A stretch of 64,000 nt of DNA from Balneola sp. (GCA_002694685.1 NZMW01000011.1:62001-126000); one strand, 5' to 3'; positions 41,578 through 50,097 are shown, counted from the stretch's first letter. Notes: generated from the letters alone by a model not told the origin. Numbers and translations are program-made.

Positions 41578-41749
41578 GTCTGTAATTAGATAGTTAGAAT
41601 GGTTTTGGTTCTTTGAACTTCTGTAATAAATGGATAAAAAGGAAAACAGAGATTACTGCACAACTATTTTATATCTCTCCAAGACTCAACCTTATATAAA
41701 CAGAAATCTTTTTTACATTCCACACCTCACTTACACTCAAAACAATTTT

Positions 41750-42991
41750 ATGTCATCATCCCAAGAAGATCTTTCTTATCCCAAAGAAAATATCAAAGTC
41801 CTTTTGTTGGAAGGAATTCACCCCAAAGCAGAAGAAAATTTCAAAAATCACCAATTCCTGAATGTTGAAACTCAGGATGAAGCCTGGAGTGAAGATGAGC
41901 TCCTCGAAAAAATCCAGGATGTACACCTGATTGGCATTCGCTCCAAGACTCAGATGACTGAGAAAGTGATTAAAAATGCTCCAAAACTTAAGGGCATTGG
42001 ATGTTTCTGTATTGGAACCAATCAGGTTGATCTGGAAGCCGCCATGTTAGCTGGCGTCACCGTCTTCAACTCTCCCTATTCAAACACGCGCTCTGTGGCT
42101 GAGCTGGTTATCGCCGAGTCTATTATGTTGAAGCGACGCATCCCGCTCCGTGATAAAAAAGCGCACGAAGGCACCTGGCTGAAAGACGCTAAAGAAAGCT
42201 ATGAGGTACGCGGCAAAAAAATGGGAATTATTGGCTACGGTCATATTGGCTCTCAGGTCTCTGTATTGGCTGAGAATATGGGGTTTGATGTACTGTATTA
42301 TGATGTAGAACCGAAGCTCCCAATGGGTAATGCCACCCGAATTGAAACCATGGAAGAGCTCCTCGAAAAATCAGACATCGTAACTCTGCATGTGCCGGCT
42401 ACACCAAGCACCGACATGATGATGGATGCCGAACGGTTTTCACAAATGAAACAGGGCAGCGTACTTTTAAATCTATCCCGTGGTTCGGTCGTTGATATTA
42501 AAGCTTTGAAAGAGGCCATTGAATCGGGACATATTTCCGGAGCTGGTATTGACGTATACCCTGAAGAGCCGGAATCATCGGGGGAATCTTTCCACACTGA
42601 ATTGCAGAATTTACCCAACGTTATTTTAACCCCGCATATCGGCGGTTCTACCATTGAGGCTCAATACAATATTGGGTCCGATGTTTCTAATAAACTCATC
42701 AACCTGATTGATAATGGAACTACGGTGGGATCTCATTCCGTGCCGCCACTGAATCTGCCGGTACAAAAAAATGCGCATCGTATTTTACACATCCACGAGA
42801 ACAAGCCGGGTGTGCTTTCTGAAATTAACCGCTGCCTGTCCGATTCAGACATCAACATTCTGGGGCAGTATTTGAAAACCAATGAGCATATCGGTTATGT
42901 GGTGTTAGATGTGGACAAAGAGTATGACGACCAGGTGCTGGAAGAAATCCGTAATGTGAAGCATACGATTAAGACTCGGATTTTGTATTAA
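41750..42991 (+). CDS. serA: D-3-phosphoglycerate dehydrogenase with ACT domain
   Basis: First step of serine biosynthesis, 413 aa, very near the 410 aa E. coli SerA. The frame opens at 41630, but Met 41750 (MSSSQEDLSYPKENIKVLLLEG) fits the family start. The NAD-binding motif is GKKMGIIGYGHIGSQVSVLAENMG, and catalytic residues lie in NLSRGSVVD (Arg) and LTPHIGGST (His). The C-terminal ACT domain (ILHIHENKPGVLSEINRCL) probably binds serine for feedback control. The integron-like array begins about 330 bp downstream. Confidence 0.95.
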   Translation: MSSSQEDLSYPKENIKVLLLEGIHPKAEENFKNHQFLNVETQDEAWSEDELLEKIQDVHLIGIRSKTQMTEKVIKNAPKLKGIGCFCIGTNQVDLEAAMLAGVTVFNSPYSNTRSVAELVIAESIMLKRRIPLRDKKAHEGTWLKDAKESYEVRGKKMGIIGYGHIGSQVSVLAENMGFDVLYYDVEPKLPMGNATRIETMEELLEKSDIVTLHVPATPSTDMMMDAERFSQMKQGSVLLNLSRGSVVDIKALKEAIESGHISGAGIDVYPEEPESSGESFHTELQNLPNVILTPHIGGSTIEAQYNIGSDVSNKLINLIDNGTTVGSHSVPPLNLPVQKNAHRILHIHENKPGVLSEINRCLSDSDINILGQYLKTNEHIGYVVLDVDKEYDDQVLEEIRNVKHTIKTRILY

Positions 42992-43059
42992 GAGCTCAAA
43001 CTCTAAGTACCAGGCTCCAAATCCCAATGACCAGTGACCAGGGTAACCTCTCTTTTCGG

Positions 43060-43147
43060 GTCATGCTGAGGATACTTCCGAAGCATCTTCTCGGGTAGAT
43101 GCTATTTCTTACTTTTGCAGATCCTTCGGGGGCACCCTCAGGATGAC
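43060..43147. repeat. GTCAT...ATGAC intergenic repeat, family 1
   Basis: It starts GTCATGCTGAGGATACTTCC and ends CCTCAGGATGAC, with complementary ends. It lies 68 bp after serA. Confidence 0.8.
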
Positions 43148-43254
43148 TTGGGTTGGCTACTGCCTCTTCTGCCTAAACAATTGATTTTCCTTTCTGAAGA
43201 GAATTCGGCACATTCCTGTAGAATTTTATCCGGGACTTTAGACGACTAAGCAGA

Positions 43255-43315
43255 CGGATAACATCCAAAAAACACCGAATCATGAGCTTGAGGGGCGATC
43301 ACCGGATCTTATCCG
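43255..43315. repeat. Long hairpin at the left edge of the cassette array
   Basis: CGGATAACATCC (43255-43266) pairs with GGATCTTATCCG (43304-43315) with one mismatch over 12 bp. A third CGGATAA follows at about 43340. It lies directly before the first cassette boundary and may be part of an old recombination site. Confidence 0.6.
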
Positions 43316-43322
43316 CCGCGCC

Positions 43323-43360
43323 CTAACAAGCCCCTTGTTCGGATAATATTATGTTAGTGC
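43323..43360 (+). other. Left boundary of cassette 1, truncated attC-like remnant
   Basis: CTAACAAG at 43323-43330 is the same left box seen in the attC sites downstream. GTTAGTGC at 43353-43360 is a right box. Only 22 bp separate them, against about 110 bp in intact sites. The right box is real: its extension GTTAGTGCAC is the exact complement of GTGCACTAAC at the start of attC-1. Confidence 0.6.
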
Positions 43361-43380
43361 ACTTCTACAAATAACCAACC

Positions 43381-44112
43381 ATGTCAGAAATTGTTCGGAA
43401 AAAAATGGAAGAAAAAAGTGAGGCCGAACTGCTTCATATCCTCCAGAATGAACATCAATTTAGACCTGAAGCGATAAGAATTGCTAAAGAGATTTTAGAA
43501 GAAAAGGGAAATGCTCCTGATATTGAAGGATCTCAAAGCGAAGTACCAAATTATTCAAATAGTAATCCTACACTATTTTACAATCTGTTCTTAAAACCTG
43601 AAATACCCTGGTACTACCGATTGAACAGATTCTTGGCACTGGTATTGTGCTTTCCCGCTGCATTGTATGTAATTATTGGAACAGTTATTCCAAATCCCAA
43701 TATTGAAGTACGAGTGATCCTTGATAAAGAGCTTGGTAGCTACACAGTAAAATCTAAAGACTATACTTCTTACTCTTTAAAAATATAAGAAAAGGATATT
43801 AGTGTTCCTCCTACTGTGTATCACGTGGCTGAAGTCGGTGACACATTAAGATTGTAGACGGGAATTTCAGACATAGCAGGATATCATCTTATCGAACTTA
43901 TCCAAAATGGAGAATCTAAAGTTCGAATTACCGATGATGCCCTTCAAATTGGAATAGCAATGGTATTTTTTCTTCTGTTCCCTTTATTAGTCTTTAATGA
44001 CTATGAAAAATGGAAGGACAATATAATTTTTCGATATATGTATGCAGCTATTCCTGCGACAATTTCTTTGATTGTTTTATTCGGATTATTTATTGCATGG
44101 TTGGTTTCCTAG
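43381..44112 (+). pseudogene. Cassette 1 gene: membrane protein interrupted by two stop codons
   Basis: The first segment (43381-43788, 135 aa) starts with a charged helix typical of small Bacteroidota membrane proteins (KKMEEKSEAELLHILQNEH) and has one transmembrane helix (LALVLCFPAALYVIIGTVI). After TAA at 43786-43788 the same frame continues to TAG at 43855-43857 and then on to TAG at 44110-44112. The later part encodes two more membrane helices (MVFFLLFPLLVF and ATISLIVLFGLFIAW). Reading through would give about 243 codons. Two in-frame nonsense codons in an otherwise coherent frame suggest recent decay. Confidence 0.75.
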
Positions 44113-44126
44113 CAAAATAGAACGTG

Positions 44127-44249
44127 CACTAACAAGCGTTTCAAGTCGGACGCAGGTGGGTTCGATGGTAAGCTTGTGAGCAATAAAATTAATCCGTTAC
44201 TTCAACGAAAACCGAGAACCTGCGCCGCTTAAACGCTGGGTCGTTAGCC
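44127..44249 (+). other. attC-1 recombination site (123 bp)
   Basis: The left box is CACTAAC and the right box is GTTAGCC. The arms pair as an imperfect stem: CGTTTCAAGTCGGACGCAGGT against the reverse complement CGTTTAAGCGGCGCAGGT. Three extra bases stay unpaired on one arm, like the extrahelical bases of attC sites. The central part contains AATTAATCCGTTACTTCAA, shared with the other sites. Confidence 0.88.
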
Positions 44250-44252
44250 TCC

Positions 44253-44606
44253 ATGAAAAAACCAGAATTGAAATACCTTATCAGCACTGAACTCGATGAA
44301 GGGGAATTACCTGAAAACCCTGACAACTGTTCAGTATTCATCGAAGCCAATATTGGTTTAGAAGCTGAAGAAGGTTCTGATATTTTTTCATTTCATGTAG
44401 TTACCCCAAGTTTTCTCGAAAACGATGATAAGCCTCGTTGGGGACGAGGGTATTTAATTATTGATTACTTTTCTTGGGAATTGGTTGAGAAGTCCATCCA
44501 AAAATTACTTCGTCATTGTAATGGGAAAAACTGGGATGAGATTTCAACACAACTAAGTAAAGAACTTCACTGGGAGTTTGATAACTACAAAGAAAATGAA
44601 GGCTAA
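44253..44606 (+). CDS. Imm8-like immunity protein (cassette 2)
   Basis: Small acidic protein of 117 aa. The pattern FSFHVVTPSFL, RWGRGYLIIDYFSWELVEKSI, CNGKNWDEISTQLS and HWEFDNY matches what I know of immunity protein family Imm8 of polymorphic toxin systems. No toxin gene is adjacent, so it is an orphan immunity gene carried as a cassette. The ATG lies 9 bp after the attC-1 crossover point, and the stop codon TAA is inside the left box of attC-2 (GGCTAAC). Confidence 0.72.
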   Translation: MKKPELKYLISTELDEGELPENPDNCSVFIEANIGLEAEEGSDIFSFHVVTPSFLENDDKPRWGRGYLIIDYFSWELVEKSIQKLLRHCNGKNWDEISTQLSKELHWEFDNYKENEG

Positions 44607-44717
44607 CAAGGCGTTTTAAAGCGGACTGGGTGCGATGGAACTTGATTGCCAGGAATTAATTTCGCTACTTCAAGAAAATCAGAATCCCCGCGCCCGTTAT
44701 GCGCAGGGTCGTTAGTT
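44601..44717 (+). other. attC-2 recombination site (117 bp)
   Basis: The left box is GGCTAAC and the right box is GTTAGTT. The body has GGCGTTTTAAAGCGGAC, CTTGATTGCCAGGAATTAAT, GCTACTTCAA and GCAGGGTCG, shared with other sites. The left box extended by one base is the exact complement (8 bp) of the cassette 2 start. Confidence 0.88.
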
Positions 44718-44722
44718 GCATC

Positions 44723-45061
44723 ATGAATTTCCCAAAGAAAAAAACAATTCTTGGAAGTGTTACCCTTCTATTGACCATCATTATACTTGGCTTTGAGGAG
44801 AGAGATGTTGCTGTAAATGCTCTCCATATGATCGTTATTATTTCATGGGTAATAACTGTAGTTACTGAGGCGATTGTATTACTTTTTCTTAGAAAATGGA
44901 GACTAGGTTTATCTGTACTAATACTTTTTCCTTTATCTTTATTTCTCCCTGATCTAATTAATTACAATCCTGAAATAGTTTATAAAGCTCAGCTATTACT
45001 TTGGTTTATCTTACCTTCCTTTGCATCATTATTCTTAATCAACTATAAAGATGACAACTAA
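44723..45061 (+). CDS. Small membrane protein (cassette 3), unknown
   Basis: Hydrophobic protein of 112 aa with about four transmembrane helices (TILGSVTLLLTIIILGF, MIVIISWVITVVTEAIVLLFL, LSVLILFPLSLFL, LLLWFILPSFASLFLI). The open frame begins at 44699 inside attC-2, but Met 44723 is the first start within the cassette. It ends DDN-stop, with the stop codon TAA inside the left box CAACTAAC. No family recognised. Confidence 0.7.
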   Translation: MNFPKKKTILGSVTLLLTIIILGFEERDVAVNALHMIVIISWVITVVTEAIVLLFLRKWRLGLSVLILFPLSLFLPDLINYNPEIVYKAQLLLWFILPSFASLFLINYKDDN

Positions 45062-45083
45062 CAAGCGTTGTAAATTCTAGAAA
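45055..45083 (+). other. Truncated attC (left half only) between cassettes 3 and 4
   Basis: CAACTAACAAGCGTTGTAAAT matches the left box and first arm of the neighbouring sites, then breaks off directly into the next gene. CAACTAAC is the exact complement of GTTAGTTG at the start of cassette 3. About 95 bp of the site and the start of cassette 4 appear to be lost. Confidence 0.75.
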
Positions 45084-45560
45084 ATGAAGCCAATCTTAAT
45101 TCGTGCTTTTCAATGGACTTTAGCCAGTTTTCTTGTTGGTTTAATAGTTTGGCTAATTTTAGGTGGTTTAGTTTGGCCCGTATTTTTTTATGATTGGACT
45201 ATTTCTGACGCTATTTCTCACTTTCCATTCTCACTGATTCTAGGCAGCTATTTTGCAGGAGCTGTAGGTTTAGTATTGTCACCTATTTATTTTGGATTGT
45301 ACACAATATTTGAAAAAATAGCTGAATCTAAGATTTGGTTAAAAAATACTTCAATTGGCTTATTTATTACCGTTTTAATTTTGGCTTTACCTCCTGCTAT
45401 TGGAATAGCGTATTCATTTGAAGAACCGATTCTTGGAGAAGATTTTAAGTGGATTGAGTTTGGTAAAACTTTCATGTTAACTGGAATTATATTTATATGT
45501 GCTGTACTAATTCCAAGACTAACACTAAAAAAATTAAAGCCAACAGAATCCGCGGTATAA
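45084..45560 (+). CDS. Membrane protein (cassette 4), unknown
   Basis: Protein of 158 aa with four predicted transmembrane helices (ASFLVGLIVWLILGGLVWPVFF, GSYFAGAVGLVLSPIYFGLY, IGLFITVLILALPPAIGIAY, FMLTGIIFICAVLIP). No family recognised. It starts 13 bp after the point where the truncated attC stops matching; the normal cassette leader is missing. It may now depend on transcription from cassette 3. Confidence 0.72.
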   Translation: MKPILIRAFQWTLASFLVGLIVWLILGGLVWPVFFYDWTISDAISHFPFSLILGSYFAGAVGLVLSPIYFGLYTIFEKIAESKIWLKNTSIGLFITVLILALPPAIGIAYSFEEPILGEDFKWIEFGKTFMLTGIIFICAVLIPRLTLKKLKPTESAV

Positions 45561-45682
45561 ATAACAAGGCGTTTTAAATCGGACGCGGACGGAGTGCGAT
45601 GGAAACTTGTTTGCCAAGAATTAATTTCGCTAATTCAACTAAATCAAAATTCCAGCGCCGTTTAAACGCTGGGCCGTATTAC
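45559..45682 (+). other. attC-4 recombination site (124 bp), altered right box
   Basis: The left box is AAATAAC. The body matches the other sites (GGCGTTTTAAATCGGAC, TTGCCAAGAATTAATTTCGCTA, TTTAAACGCTGGGCC). The right box reads GTATTAC where GTT is expected. The cassette 5 left box (GTATAAC) implies an original GTTATAC, so two bases appear changed. Confidence 0.8.
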
Positions 45683-45686
45683 CACA

Positions 45687-46199
45687 ATGACGTCTATGTC
45701 AAAAATCGTCTTTAAAGCAGATAAATCCCGACTTCTTAATCGCTTAGTTTTTGGAATAGCAGGCGGTGCTTTTCTAATCTGGTTATATGCAACCGGAGTC
45801 GATAAAGCTTTTGTAATTCCATCTTTAATCCTATTTGCTATTCTTGCAGCCCGAGGTTTTTGGCGCCTTTTTCAACAATACCGAAATAGTGAACTTATAA
45901 TTTTAGATGAAAATGGAATTACTGACAGTAGCTACGGTCTTGGATTTATTCCATGGGGAAACATTCAAGCTGCGAGAATTCATGAAGTAAATCGATTTAT
46001 TCAAACATTTCGTGTCATAGAACTAAGCTTAAAAGACAACAAAAGATTTTTTGATAACAAAAGTTATGACCGACGTCTCATTGAAAAAGGTATTTCAAAT
46101 GGTTCAACTGGAATTTGGCTGAATACTTGGAAATTACAAAGCTCTGATGAGGATGTTCTTGAAACAATTCGGGAATACATCTACAAATATTCTAGTTAA
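45687..46199 (+). CDS. STM3941-like membrane protein (cassette 5)
   Basis: Protein of 170 aa with an alternative Met at 45696. Two transmembrane helices close together (LVFGIAGGAFLIWLYATG and FVIPSLILFAILAARGFW) are followed by a PH-like cytoplasmic domain (SELIILDENGITDSSYGLGFIPWGNIQAARIHE, then TGIWLNTWKLQ). This resembles the STM3941 family, whose function is unknown. The recombination site on its left has an altered core. Confidence 0.68.
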   Translation: MTSMSKIVFKADKSRLLNRLVFGIAGGAFLIWLYATGVDKAFVIPSLILFAILAARGFWRLFQQYRNSELIILDENGITDSSYGLGFIPWGNIQAARIHEVNRFIQTFRVIELSLKDNKRFFDNKSYDRRLIEKGISNGSTGIWLNTWKLQSSDEDVLETIREYIYKYSS

Positions 46200-46208
46200 C
46201 ATTTTGCG

Positions 46209-46325
46209 GTATAACAATTGTTTTAAATCGGACGGGGTGCGATCGAACTTGATTGCCAGGAATTAATTTTGCTACTTCAAAATAAATCATAATCCCCGCG
46301 CCGCTTAAACGCAGGGTCGTTATGC
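46209..46325 (+). other. attC-5 recombination site (117 bp)
   Basis: The left box is GTATAAC and the right box is GTTATGC. The body shares TTTTAAATCGGACGGGGTGCG, CTTGATTGCCAGGAATTAAT, GCTACTTCAA and CCGCTTAAACGCAGGGTCG with its neighbours. Confidence 0.88.
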
Positions 46326-46669
46326 AACCTAATCAAGAATCATTGGAGCTAACACTTTCTGATATTGAAAATCTTTCTACAAAGAATCAGGAATTCGCAC
46401 AAGAACTTCAGCTTCTATACGATGCAATTAATGATTACCCAAAGTTGGGAATAGATTCGATTTCCAACTTGAAGCAAGATTTAGAAAATGAAGGCTTGAA
46501 GTCTTTCGGAGTAGAGGAAATCAAAAAATTCCAGAAAAGTCTCTCTGCTACTGAGAATGCATGGATAATTGAGTCTTTAGAAAGTATAATTGCTTTCTGC
46601 TCCAAAGTTGAAGAAAATGACTTCGTAAATGCTGTTCGGAAACTCACACATAAACTACGGGTTGCATAA
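46322..46669 (+). CDS. Unknown helical protein (cassette 6)
   Basis: Acidic, all-helical protein of 115 aa (LSDIENLSTKNQEFAQELQLLYDAI, ENAWIIESLESIIAFCSKV). No family recognised; no membrane segment. The start codon ATG lies inside the right box GTTATGC of attC-5, on the cassette side of the crossover, so it travels with the cassette. The stop codon TAA is inside the next left box, so the gene fills its cassette completely. Confidence 0.72.
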   Translation: MQPNQESLELTLSDIENLSTKNQEFAQELQLLYDAINDYPKLGIDSISNLKQDLENEGLKSFGVEEIKKFQKSLSATENAWIIESLESIIAFCSKVEENDFVNAVRKLTHKLRVA

Positions 46670-46786
46670 CAATGCGATTCAAATCGGACTCGGGCGGGGT
46701 GCGATGGAACTTGATTGCCAAGAATTAATTTTGCTACTTCAACTAAATTATAATCCCCGCGCCCGTTCTGCTCAGGGTCGTTATGT
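46664..46786 (+). other. attC-6 recombination site (123 bp)
   Basis: The left box is GCATAAC and the right box is GTTATGT. GGTTGCATAAC is the exact 11 bp complement of GTTATGCAACC at the start of cassette 6. The body contains the shared CTTGATTGCCAAGAATTAAT and GCTACTTCAA. Confidence 0.88.
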
Positions 46787-46825
46787 TCTTCATTTACTTC
46801 TCCTCTCTTTTCGCAATAAAATTTA

Positions 46826-46856
46826 TTTGAAAAAGTTCGCATATATGCTAACTTTG
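46826..46856 (+). promoter_or_regulatory. Bacteroidota-type promoter with palindromic operator for the toxin-antitoxin operon
   Basis: TTTG at 46826-46829 and TAACTTTG at 46849-46856 are exactly 19 bp apart, matching the TTTG-N19-TAnnTTTG consensus of Bacteroidota. The palindrome GCATATATGC (46839-46848) lies between the two boxes, a natural place for autorepression by the antitoxin. The -7 box ends 4 bp before the toxin ATG, so the message would be leaderless or nearly so. Confidence 0.8.
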
Positions 46857-46860
46857 AAAT

Positions 46861-47211
46861 ATGCGCGTTATCAAGTTTTACCGAACAAAAGCCGGGAATT
46901 GTCCTGTCGAAGATTTTTTGCACAGTCTTCCTGACAAACAATCCAAAAAAGTGGCCTGGACACTTCGTGTTGTTCGTGATTTAGAACAAGTTCCCACTCA
47001 GTATTTGAAGAAGCTCAAAAGCACCGATGATATTTGGGAAGTACGAGCAACGCTTGGTAACAATACTTTTCGGTTGTTGGGATTCTTTGACGGGCCAAAA
47101 CTAATTGTCTTAACTAGTGGATTTGCCAAGAAGTCGAATAAAGTCCCAAAACAGGAAATTGAGACTGCCGAAGAACGTAAACGTGATTATTACCGGAGGA
47201 AAGAAGAATGA
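46861..47211 (+). CDS. HigB-type toxin (RelE superfamily, phage Gp49-like)
   Basis: Basic protein of 116 aa of the Gp49/HigB group, probable ribosome-dependent mRNA interferase. Typical segments are [47 protein letters not shown] and [27 protein letters not shown]. The following antitoxin gene overlaps it by 4 bp (ATGA), so they are translationally coupled, with toxin first as in higBA. It follows attC-6, but no closing attC was found after the pair. Confidence 0.9.
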
Positions 47212-47489
47212 GTAAAGATGATTTAGAAATTTTTATCGATCAAAAGAAAGCCGAAAGCCCAGAGTTTGCCGAAAATTTTGAGGAAGGATACCTCAATTTC
47301 AAGATCGGAGTAATACTTCGTCAGGCTCGTGAAAATATGGGAGTAACTCAGGCTGATGTTGCCGAGAAGCTGAACACCACGAAATCAGTGATTTCCAGAA
47401 TGGAAAATCATGCCGAGGATATTAAACTTTCTACGCTTACTAAATATGCGAAGGCATTAGGTAAAAAAGTAAAGCTCGAAATCCAATAA
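47208..47489 (+). CDS. HigA-type XRE-family antitoxin
   Basis: Protein of 93 aa with a helix-turn-helix of the XRE family ([33 protein letters not shown]). It should neutralise the upstream toxin and repress the operon, probably at the palindrome 46839-46848. Start overlaps the toxin stop by 4 bp. Confidence 0.9.
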
Positions 47490-47495
47490 ATTCAA

Positions 47496-48041
47496 ATGAA
47501 ATGCTCCGTTTATATCGCTACCAGTGCTGACGGTTTTATCGCAAAACCGGATGGGGATATTGAGTGGCTTCACAGGTCAGAGTATGAAGATGCAGCACAG
47601 GTTGGATTAGACTATACCGAATTCATTTCAACAGTGGATGCCATTGTTATGGGGCGCCATTCATTTGAAAAAGTATTGACCTTCGATGACTGGTATTACG
47701 AGGACATCGAAGTCATTGTATTAACCACAAGAAAACTGACGGTTCCGGAGCGTTTGGGAGATAAAGTACGAGTTGAGTCCGGAACTCCTCATGAGATTGT
47801 TACGACGCTTTCCGGGGAAGGCAAGAACCACCTTTATATTGACGGCGGTATTACCATTCAACGTTTTCTTAAGGCGAAACTCATTGATGAACTTACCATT
47901 ACGGTACTCCCAATCCTGCTTGGAAACGGAATTCCATTATTCGGCAATGAGGGAATTGAGCAGTCCTTAAAGCTGATAGAAGTGTCTTCATCCCCCGGTG
48001 GAACTATCCAAAAAAGATATCGTGTGAAATCCACCGAATAA
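47496..48041 (+). CDS. Dihydrofolate reductase family protein (RibD C-terminal-like)
   Basis: Protein of 181 aa with the DHFR/RibD reductase fold (CSVYIATSADGFIAKPDGDIEWL, VMGRHSFEKVLTF, HLYIDGGITIQRFL). It starts 6 bp after the antitoxin gene and could share its transcript. Members (YwjB/YyaP-like) have unclear substrates; it is not the housekeeping folA. Confidence 0.88.
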   Translation: MKCSVYIATSADGFIAKPDGDIEWLHRSEYEDAAQVGLDYTEFISTVDAIVMGRHSFEKVLTFDDWYYEDIEVIVLTTRKLTVPERLGDKVRVESGTPHEIVTTLSGEGKNHLYIDGGITIQRFLKAKLIDELTITVLPILLGNGIPLFGNEGIEQSLKLIEVSSSPGGTIQKRYRVKSTE

Positions 48042-48056
48042 CGTAAATACTTTGCT

Positions 48057-48422
48057 ATGAAAACAACTCCTAAACACAATGCTCGAATTGCAAGTATGAC
48101 CTTTGCCTCCGTATATCCGCACTATATCACAAAAGTTGAGGGTAAAGGCAGAACAACAGAAGAACTGCATCAGGTAATAACCTGGCTGACTGGATTTAGT
48201 GATCAAAAAATCCAAGAGCTTATTGACGAAAAAGTTACGTTTGAGACCTTCTTTAATAGAGCTCAGCTAAATCCCAATGCTCACCTTATCAAAGGAGTAA
48301 TTTGTGGCTATAGAGTGGAAGAACTTGAAAACCCGCTTACACAAAAAGTGAGGTATTTGGATAAACTGGTTGACGAGTTAGCGAAAGGTAAAAAGATGGA
48401 GAAAATTTTGCGTGACTCTTAG
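48057..48422 (+). CDS. DUF2200 family protein
   Basis: Protein of 121 aa that matches DUF2200 throughout: [57 protein letters not shown] and [19 protein letters not shown]. Function is unknown. It starts 15 bp after the DHFR-like gene, so it probably shares a transcript. Family members occur sporadically across bacteria. Confidence 0.85.
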
Positions 48423-48480
48423 GTTGGAAGAGTTAATTTAATAACCCTACCCCGACTGATCATTATCCAAATAAGATAGC

Positions 48481-49062
48481 ATGAGCAAGGAAAGTCCCGA
48501 ATCCTTTTATCCCAAAAACACCCAAGAATGGCGGGAATGGTTGACTGTCAATCATAAAAAGAAGAAATCAATCTGGCTGATTTTATACAAAAAGAACTCC
48601 GATGAACCGACCATCTCCTGGAGTGAAGCTGTTGATGAAGCCCTGTGCTTTGGATGGATTGACAGCACACGGAGAGCCATCGACGACGAGAAGTACATGC
48701 AGTATTTTTGCCCTAGAAAAGAAAAAAGTATCTGGTCAAAAATAAACAAAGAGAAAGTTAAGAAGCTCAAAGAAGCTGGCTTAATGACTAAGTCTGGCCT
48801 GAAAATCATTGAAACGGCAAAGCAAAATGGTTCCTGGACTATTCTGGATGGAGTTGAAGCCCTGATTATTCCCGATGATTCAGAAAAGGAATTCCACAAA
48901 AATTCAGGATCAAAGGAATTCTTTCTAAGCTTGAGTAAATCTGACCGAAAACGCCTGTTGTACTGGCTTGTATCGTGCAAGAAAAAAGAAACCCGGGAAA
49001 AGCGGATTGGCGAAATTATAAAGCATGCGGCCAACAATCAGAAGCCGCCTGCTTTTAGATAA
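48481..49062 (+). CDS. YdeI/OmpD-associated family protein
   Basis: Protein of 193 aa. Typical segments are NTQEWREWLTVNHKKKKSIWLILYKK, WSEAVDEALCFGWIDSTRRAID and FCPRKEKSIWSKINKEKVKKLKEAGLM. The C-terminal DRKRLLYWLVSCKKKETREKRI is the OmdA-type helix. Family members have been linked to resistance to antimicrobial peptides, but the biochemical role is unclear. A related C terminus appears at the right edge of the window. Confidence 0.85.
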   Translation: MSKESPESFYPKNTQEWREWLTVNHKKKKSIWLILYKKNSDEPTISWSEAVDEALCFGWIDSTRRAIDDEKYMQYFCPRKEKSIWSKINKEKVKKLKEAGLMTKSGLKIIETAKQNGSWTILDGVEALIIPDDSEKEFHKNSGSKEFFLSLSKSDRKRLLYWLVSCKKKETREKRIGEIIKHAANNQKPPAFR

Positions 49063-49120
49063 TACGGCAGGATGGTACTTCTATCCCAACCACTCGTTTC
49101 AAGTACGTAAAGCATAAGTA

Positions 49121-49253
49121 GTCATCCCGAATTTATTTCGGGATCTTAAGATGTGGCTAGAAGTTATACGGTTATTCTATTGATTGTTTGAGGCTTCAAA
49201 GGCTACTCCGTCCAAGAGACCTCACAAAGATCCTGAAATAAATTCAGGATGAC
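49121..49253. repeat. GTCAT...ATGAC intergenic repeat, family 1
   Basis: It starts GTCATCCCGAATTTATTTCG and ends TGAAATAAATTCAGGATGAC; the terminal 20 bp are nearly complementary. It lies between convergent genes. Confidence 0.82.
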
Positions 49254-49323
49254 GACATCGTCGTTAAACAGCGTCTTACAGGTTGTCTTTGTTACATGAC
49301 AGCCCATAAAATCCATGCTCTCT

Positions 49324-50097
49324 TTACCGCGCCGCATTCACCAACTGCTTAAAAATATTTCGCTGTCGGGAAATTTGGATGAGATATTCCGGATGCCACT
49401 GCACCCCAATCATAAACGGATATCCTGAATGTTCGATCGCCTGCGTGATGCCAGTATTCAATTCTTCACACGCAACCTCAATACCCTCTCCGGGTTTATC
49501 TATGGCTTGGTTATGAAGTGCATTCACGTTGCAGACATCCGTTTGGAGCAGCTCACATAACTTGGTATGATCTTTAATCTTAATCCGCTTTTTGGGAAAT
49601 ATGGAAGAAACCTGCGCTTTCTCTGCATAAAACCCCCGAATGTCCTGATGCAAAGTCCCTTTGAAATGCACATTCATAAGTTGCATCCCGCGGCAAATTC
49701 CCAATACGGGAATACCTTTTTCAATGGCATCACTCAGATATCCAAGTTCTAGCGCATCCCGCTCTAAATCGATGGGTGATCTTTTAGTATGCTGAAAATA
49801 GCGAGCCAGCCAGTAGAGTGGAAAAAACAAGATGGAGAGCAGCCACTCGAAGATGGTCCGCTTATCTTTAGCCAGCGTTGCTTTCACGATCCGCTGCTGA
49901 CCATATTTCAGCGGCTCAACATCGGCACCGCCACCAATTATAAGTCCGTCAATTTGATCGATACTTCTGGGTGTTTCCGTTGTAATTCGAAGAGGTTTCC
50001 CTCCTTGCAGTATGATCGAGAGGGCTGTAAAAATCCATGCACCTGTCCCACCTTCCTTAGGACCCGTAACTCCTATTGTAGGTTCACGATCTTTCAT
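49324..50097 (-). CDS. Class I glutamine amidotransferase (PuuD/gamma-glutamyl hydrolase-like)
   Basis: Protein of 257 aa of the peptidase C26 type. The nucleophile Cys lies in VLGICRGMQLMNVHFKG and the His-Glu pair in IGVQWHPEYLIQ. The gene overlaps the end of the upstream amidoligase gene by 14 bp, so the pair forms an operon. It may hydrolyse a gamma-glutamyl amide made by the amidoligase, or supply ammonia to it; which of the two is inference. Confidence 0.88.
   Translation of the reverse strand: MKDREPTIGVTGPKEGGTGAWIFTALSIILQGGKPLRITTETPRSIDQIDGLIIGGGADVEPLKYGQQRIVKATLAKDKRTIFEWLLSILFFPLYWLARYFQHTKRSPIDLERDALELGYLSDAIEKGIPVLGICRGMQLMNVHFKGTLHQDIRGFYAEKAQVSSIFPKKRIKIKDHTKLCELLQTDVCNVNALHNQAIDKPGEGIEVACEELNTGITQAIEHSGYPFMIGVQWHPEYLIQISRQRNIFKQLVNAAR

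Follow-up and report, generated by a model that had tools for sequence, protein, structure and literature searches.

What does an array of gene cassettes mean when no integrase stands beside it? Arrays lying away from an integrase are filed as CALINs (clusters of attC sites lacking integron integrases) and read as degraded remains or as insertions at attG sites. The question is raised by a stretch of 64,000 nucleotides from Balneola sp. (GCA_002694685.1, NZMW01000011.1:62001-126000), hereafter called the window, in which all positions given without a contig are counted. Behind the serA gene of this stretch the first-pass annotation had placed five attC-like sites and a CALIN-like array without an integrase. 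The answer proposed here, to which we give a probability of about 0.78, is that the array belongs to a distributed integron, in which one integrase serves several remote attI docks in trans.

All five sites were found where they had been placed (44127–44249, 44601–44717, 45559–45682, 46209–46325 and 46664–46786; 117–124 bp) and form a single sequence family, aligning at 83% mean column identity. Boxes of the attC type (AAC ... GTT) follow each short gene, with right boxes GTTAGCC, GTTAGTT, GTATTAC, GTTATGC and GTTATGT, the third of which is the only exception. The imperfect stem ascribed to the sites was reproduced only in part: in single-strand folding site 1 was clearly more stable than its shuffled versions (z −4.2), while sites 2–5 were not (z from −0.8 to +0.5). 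The cleanest sign of genuine cassettes is pairing between the two ends of the same unit. Cassette 1 begins with GTTAGTGCAC, which pairs over 10 bp with the left box of its own attC (GTGCACTAAC); cassette 6 begins with GTTATGCAACC, pairing over 11 bp with its left box (GGTTGCATAAC), and in cassette 2 the complementarity extends over 8 bp. Taking together contig C9 of the window genome (G000) and the intI array of genome G009, such pairing over 8–12 bp was registered in 12 of 13 cassettes, with a mean of 5.0 for unrelated pairs; the remaining one, the first G009 cassette, pairs over 10 bp if read by eye with the anchor moved by one base. The 8–12 bp observed in these arrays (L095, which is G000:C9, and L203) go beyond the classical core box, which has 7 bp. 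A covariance model of attC (R1) was built from the five window sites and recovers those five by construction; in the 3.95-Mb draft genome it detected 30 sites at several separate places, 25 of them outside the training set (best E 2e-36). In other Balneolaceae arrays of the same attC family lie directly beside intI. Based on the pairing of own ends and on this neighborhood in relatives, the five sites are genuine attC and the stretch is a real integron cassette array, as the first-pass annotation had supposed.

The array starts behind serA, whose identification as the left neighbor (41741–42991) was confirmed by Pfam domains. Positions 43226–43357 align over 133 bp at 82.7% identity (E 8e-34) with the attI that lies beside intI in G. 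amylolytica (G001); the matching sequence there is situated between intI and the first cassette, and the alignment ends exactly at the crossover GTTAG. A sequence model of attI (R2), derived from 17 attI regions with the window site among them, gives 75 bits at 43193–43357 (E 1.4e-20 genome-wide); matches confined to approximately the first 50 model positions were disregarded as low-complexity or chance. The segment 43319–43358, tried as a short degenerate attC, turned out to be the end of attI when compared with the regions upstream of intI. An orphan attI is likewise situated behind serA in G009, with 88.6% identity over 185 bp to the attI that accompanies the genome's own intI. Comparison of the same locus in relatives revealed an empty site in G001, G004, G005, G006 and G008: there serA is directly followed by a convergent GATase gene, found in the window at 49324–50097, and the window insert therefore spans about 42992–49323. 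The array, composed of an orphan attI behind serA and then at least six cassettes, most of them with attC, is a platform headed by attI and lacking intI in cis, not a bare attC cluster.

That the window contains no integrase was borne out, and tblastn detected no piece of intI in the 40–50 kb stretch. The absence does not extend to the genome, since a complete IntI (TIGR02249, 449 bits with a cut-off of 265) is encoded at the start of contig C1 (G000:C1:299-1261; L003:299-1261). IntI above the cut-off is present in 50 of 92 genomes of the family, and the closest relatives by IntI are Balneolaceae and Gracilimonas. The designation CALIN-like is thus partly right. With two or more attC sites and intI absent from its surroundings the array falls under the definition of a CALIN, though it is headed by a bona fide attI and a complete IntI resides elsewhere in the genome; of a complete integron it has the attI heading the array and lacks the intI adjoining it. 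Between the start of intI and attI, 15 genomes share a conserved element GTNAGA[GC]CG...ATTCCTTACA with a partial inverted repeat (alignment A4, columns 1–31), which could be a binding site for a regulator or for IntI.

Orphan attI were detected by the attI model in all ten genomes of the genus Gracilimonas (Balneolota), where remote docks of this kind are common. Among the 34 orphan loci examined, the two serA loci included, 25 have an attC match (E<0.01) on the same strand within 5 kb downstream, while only about one would be expected by chance, as estimated from 15–30 attC matches per 3–4 Mb genome. The nearest upstream gene is co-directional in 32 of the 34 loci, or in about 16 of 18 if orthologous loci are counted once. 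Their positions are conserved: an amidohydrolase/PD40 gene precedes the orphan site in five species, an MMPL transporter gene and TatD in four each, and a redoxin gene in three; serA, KorB-like, S9 peptidase and SRAP genes each do so in two. The window genome has three further orphan attI, behind menE, a gene for FAD-dependent oxidoreductase (both named by eye) and the amidohydrolase gene. No trace of intI was found by tblastn in 33 orphan loci or in the window. Other attC loci of this genome (G000:C10:203.5-205.8k, C4:753k, C4:809k and C3:104.8k), in which no attI was detected, are possibly attG insertions or contain decayed attI. In G005 the main array, which is linked to intI, contains an attI-like site (G005:C4:764006-764147, L190) at a distance of some 6 kb from the integrase gene. 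Within each attI type a short motif of its own recurs several times (TTATCCG/CGGATAA, TTATGCG or TTATCAG in alignment A4), as if the repeats within one attI evolved together.

Movement of cassettes at orphan sites was registered by comparing close species. In G003 and G006, whose anchor proteins are 95–99% identical, locus A retains 93% identity across the host gene and along attI as far as the core; past it nothing is shared for 3.4 and 2.8 kb, until 96% identity resumes at an attC right box, CG|TTATAC. In locus B of the same pair 96% identity extends up to the core and homology is found again from CG|TTAGCAACC, while at locus G 92.5% identity up to the core is followed by 95.8% after one cassette length. 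Locus E of G001 and G007 is 92% identical up to the core and shows no homology beyond. G003 and G006 each encode one full-length IntI above the cut-off, neither of them in cis at the exchange loci. Cassettes were thus exchanged, exactly to the base, at attI without intI in cis. To replace whole units between G|TT points is the action of IntI, and neither species has intI in cis at these loci. The simplest agent of the exchange would be IntI acting in trans.

The model emerging from these data is as follows. A single IntI, whose gene lies next to an attI of its own, would insert and remove cassettes at several remote orphan attI in trans, by recombination between attI and attC at G|TT. With docks placed downstream of conserved host genes and in the same direction, cassettes would be read through from host transcription. 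New docks might appear if IntI transfers a unit headed by attI to an attI already in place or to some other GTT site, of which there is one clear case, or alternatively if intI decays beside attI, as seen in another genus.

Some of the data weigh against this model, for which the evidence is computational. The swaps were seen at orthologous orphan loci of related species (G003/G006 and G001/G007) and not at the window locus. They could in principle have been made by an intI that was once in cis and was lost in both sister lineages, or by homologous recombination between attC repeats. Nine of the 34 orphan sites are without a well-scoring attC under the attC model used. Between the window attI and that of the resident intI the identity is only 51%, which equals the shuffled background, and cassette 1 is a pseudogene with two in-frame stops. 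Other signs of decay in the window are the mutated right box of attC 3 and a truncated attC between cassettes 3 and 4. Since its attI type differs from that of the resident intI and the gene of cassette 1 is broken, the window dock may be idle now, and current activity at this locus is doubtful.

The same features can be read as those of a relic, in which a complete integron once stood behind serA and lost its intI, leaving a fossil attI with cassettes, the other orphans being graveyards of successive acquisitions. Both the foreign type of the window attI and the broken cassette 1 fit such a history, and attI does stand beside truncated intI pieces in G091, a member of another genus, and in G080. 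The relic is a serious possibility, which we rate clearly short of an even chance, as it has to accommodate loci free of any intI trace, exchange of cassettes at orphan attI since the split of G003 and G006, and retention of orphan sites with intact cores at the same places across species. It is also at odds with one recent orphan attI, nested in an older attI, which is 99% identical to the resident one.

The remaining explanations dispense with a dock at this place or with the integron itself. There is a report, based on experiments, of dispersed insertion of cassettes at attG sites (Loot et al. 2024, cited by PMC12444791), and the window array might accordingly be a plain CALIN inserted at an attG site downstream of serA, with a fortuitous likeness to attI. 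This is very unlikely, because 83% identity over 133 bp to an intI-adjacent attI (E 8e-34) is beyond chance and attG requires no extended homology; an array starting from a GTT site without attI homology is not what was found here. Even lower is the probability that the array was misassembled and belongs beside intI at the start of contig C1. Draft contigs C1, C9, C15 and C3 do end in or near arrays, but the window array is embedded in a long contig, its two flanks are neighbors in relatives, the attI heading it belongs to a different type, and nine other assemblies show the same architecture. Finally, the sites might be ordinary intergenic palindromic repeats, similar to repetitive extragenic palindromes (REP), with no integron involved. 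Such repeats occur nearby, for example at 43060–43150, but pairing of cassette ends, attC beside intI in relatives and the exact exchange of units refute this idea and leave it a negligible probability.

If one integrase serves many docks, the origin of these docks should be considered. At locus B of G009 (G009:C2:2942-3284, L173) there are two tandem attI, the younger, of type C, being inside the core of the older, of type B, and 99% identical to the attI of G009's intI. The junction reads ..CGGATAATATTAT|TTATATTGTTAGAGCG.., where the expected G before the junction is absent, and the sequences thus agree to within one base. Behind serA in G009 the orphan begins with the same left end, ATG|TTATATTG, while the intI-linked copy reads GTTG|TTATATTG; thus two separate G009 copies start at the same GTT. 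The orphan of locus E in G001 matches the intI-linked attI of its own genome from TG|TTATCCGG onward, over 134 bp. Such ends suggest that attI may travel as a unit with G|TT termini, perhaps as a circle that arises by recombination between attC and GTT and carries attI with a cassette. Comparison of the cassettes at the young attI copies of G009 with its main array revealed only attC sites in common and no donor cassette. For older copies a conserved attI in decayed surroundings could give the same picture. The proposal that the system seeds itself, with IntI moving, besides cassettes, attI as a G|TT-bounded unit into older attI and into other GTT sites behind host genes, and in this way building as well as serving the network of docks round the chromosome, is tentative, with odds that we place just under even.

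Examples of the second route, in which intI decays next to attI, are given by G091 and G080, where attI adjoins truncated intI. In G091 (Balneolaceae MES10) nine matches to the attI model were registered, several of them beside truncated intI (contigs C74, C70, C77, C88, C67, C13 and C5). In G003 (G003:C1:192095-193530, L180) a second copy of attI is situated about 1.2 kb downstream of the first one together with part of the upstream flank.

At the window locus itself all features except the last gene are on the plus strand. The upstream host gene, transcribed in the same direction as the array, encodes a serA-like D-3-phosphoglycerate dehydrogenase (41741–42991; Pfam 2-Hacid_dh_C and 2-Hacid_dh), with orthologues 80–90% identical in 7 congeners. 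In the orphan attI (43226–43357) the G|TTA crossover falls between 43353 and 43354. Cassette 1 (43354–44243) contains the interrupted gene 43381–44112 and ends with attC 1, recognized by alignment, the folding test and the attC model; attC 2, 4 and 5 were recognized by alignment and the attC model. Cassette 2 (44244–44711) encodes at 44253–44606 a protein of the Imm8 immunity-protein family (PF15586, 80 bits). Cassette 3 (44712–45082), with a gene for a small membrane protein at 44723–45061, probably ends in the truncated attC (about 45055–45082), whose putative left box ACAACTAAC agrees with the cassette start GTTAGTTGC at 8 of 9 positions and whose attC-model score is at the level of chance. 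The open reading frame of cassette 4 (45084–45560) encodes a membrane protein without a family match; its 5′ cassette boundary is lost, and attC 3 behind it has the right box mutated to GTATTAC. Cassette 5 (45677–46319) carries a gene of the STM3941 family at 45687–46199 (NF041635, 48.8 bits with a cut-off of 40), and cassette 6 (46320–46780) a gene at 46322–46669 with a weak, sub-cut-off AbiU2-like match.

Further downstream there is a HigB/HigA-like toxin-antitoxin pair (46861–47489; Gp49-like and helix-turn-helix proteins, PF05973 and PF01381), which is probably further cargo without a recognizable attC. The RibD_C, DUF2200 and OmdA/YdeI genes (47496–49062), also inside the insert between serA and GATase, are candidate cargo. 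Since no attC is detectable with the attC model 3′ of attC 5, these last genes may be older cassettes or no cassettes at all. The right flank is the Peptidase C26/GATase gene (49324–50097, minus strand), which adjoins serA in the five congeners. PADLOC gave for the cassette proteins only weak or generic matches, to the toxin-antitoxin pair, and neither an Rfam search of 42.5–48.5 kb nor a plasmid search with the array sequence returned a match. REP-like intergenic repeats (CCTCAGGATGAC...) are present at 43040–43160 and likewise downstream of intI in L003 (contig C1).

Integrons are described as typically having one attI close to the integrase, and IntegronFinder limits its attI search to class 1 integrons (PMC9024848). 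As attI is not sought outside this class, attI-headed arrays and bare CALINs are not told apart. With the sedentary chromosomal integrons of the Vibrio and Xanthomonas type the present system shares IntI, attI, homogeneous lineage-specific long attC and mostly unknown cargo, but several attI docks per genome lie here far from one intI. With CALINs the window array has in common an attC array without intI nearby and differs in beginning with a full attI, which predicts that it would capture as well as lose cassettes. An attI-headed CALIN is known in the Shewanella prophage M16-3, as a second array with the attI type of the prophage's complete integron (PMC9892861); that is one prophage case, while here many chromosomal loci are conserved across species, with cassette exchange between species. 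The CALINs of Xanthomonas resemble the window array in being integrase-less and in occupying conserved loci away from ilvD-intI, with intI elsewhere; in the available text no mention of attI heading those arrays was found, and its authors contrast the conserved positions with attG insertion (PMC12444791). Delta-attI cassettes of class 1 and 2 integrons also carry attI sequence in a mobile cassette unit, but in their case only a fragment of attI is present, at the 3′ end in place of attC (PMC12901181), whereas here a whole attI heads the unit. In the literature covered, to which subscription papers do not belong, no paper was found on orphan attI and none on integrons in Gracilimonas, and the only report of an attI-headed CALIN was the Shewanella prophage case (PMC9892861). 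The parts of the system are thus known, and the architecture of one integrase with many conserved attI docks is, to our knowledge, new.

The remote arrays of this genus have an attI of their own and have exchanged cassettes without an integrase in cis. If the distributed integron is real, one bacterium could use several different host promoters at the same time, with cassettes placed behind each. The same arrangement may explain CALINs that occupy conserved loci in other genera, an idea that can be checked by searching for attI upstream of CALINs.

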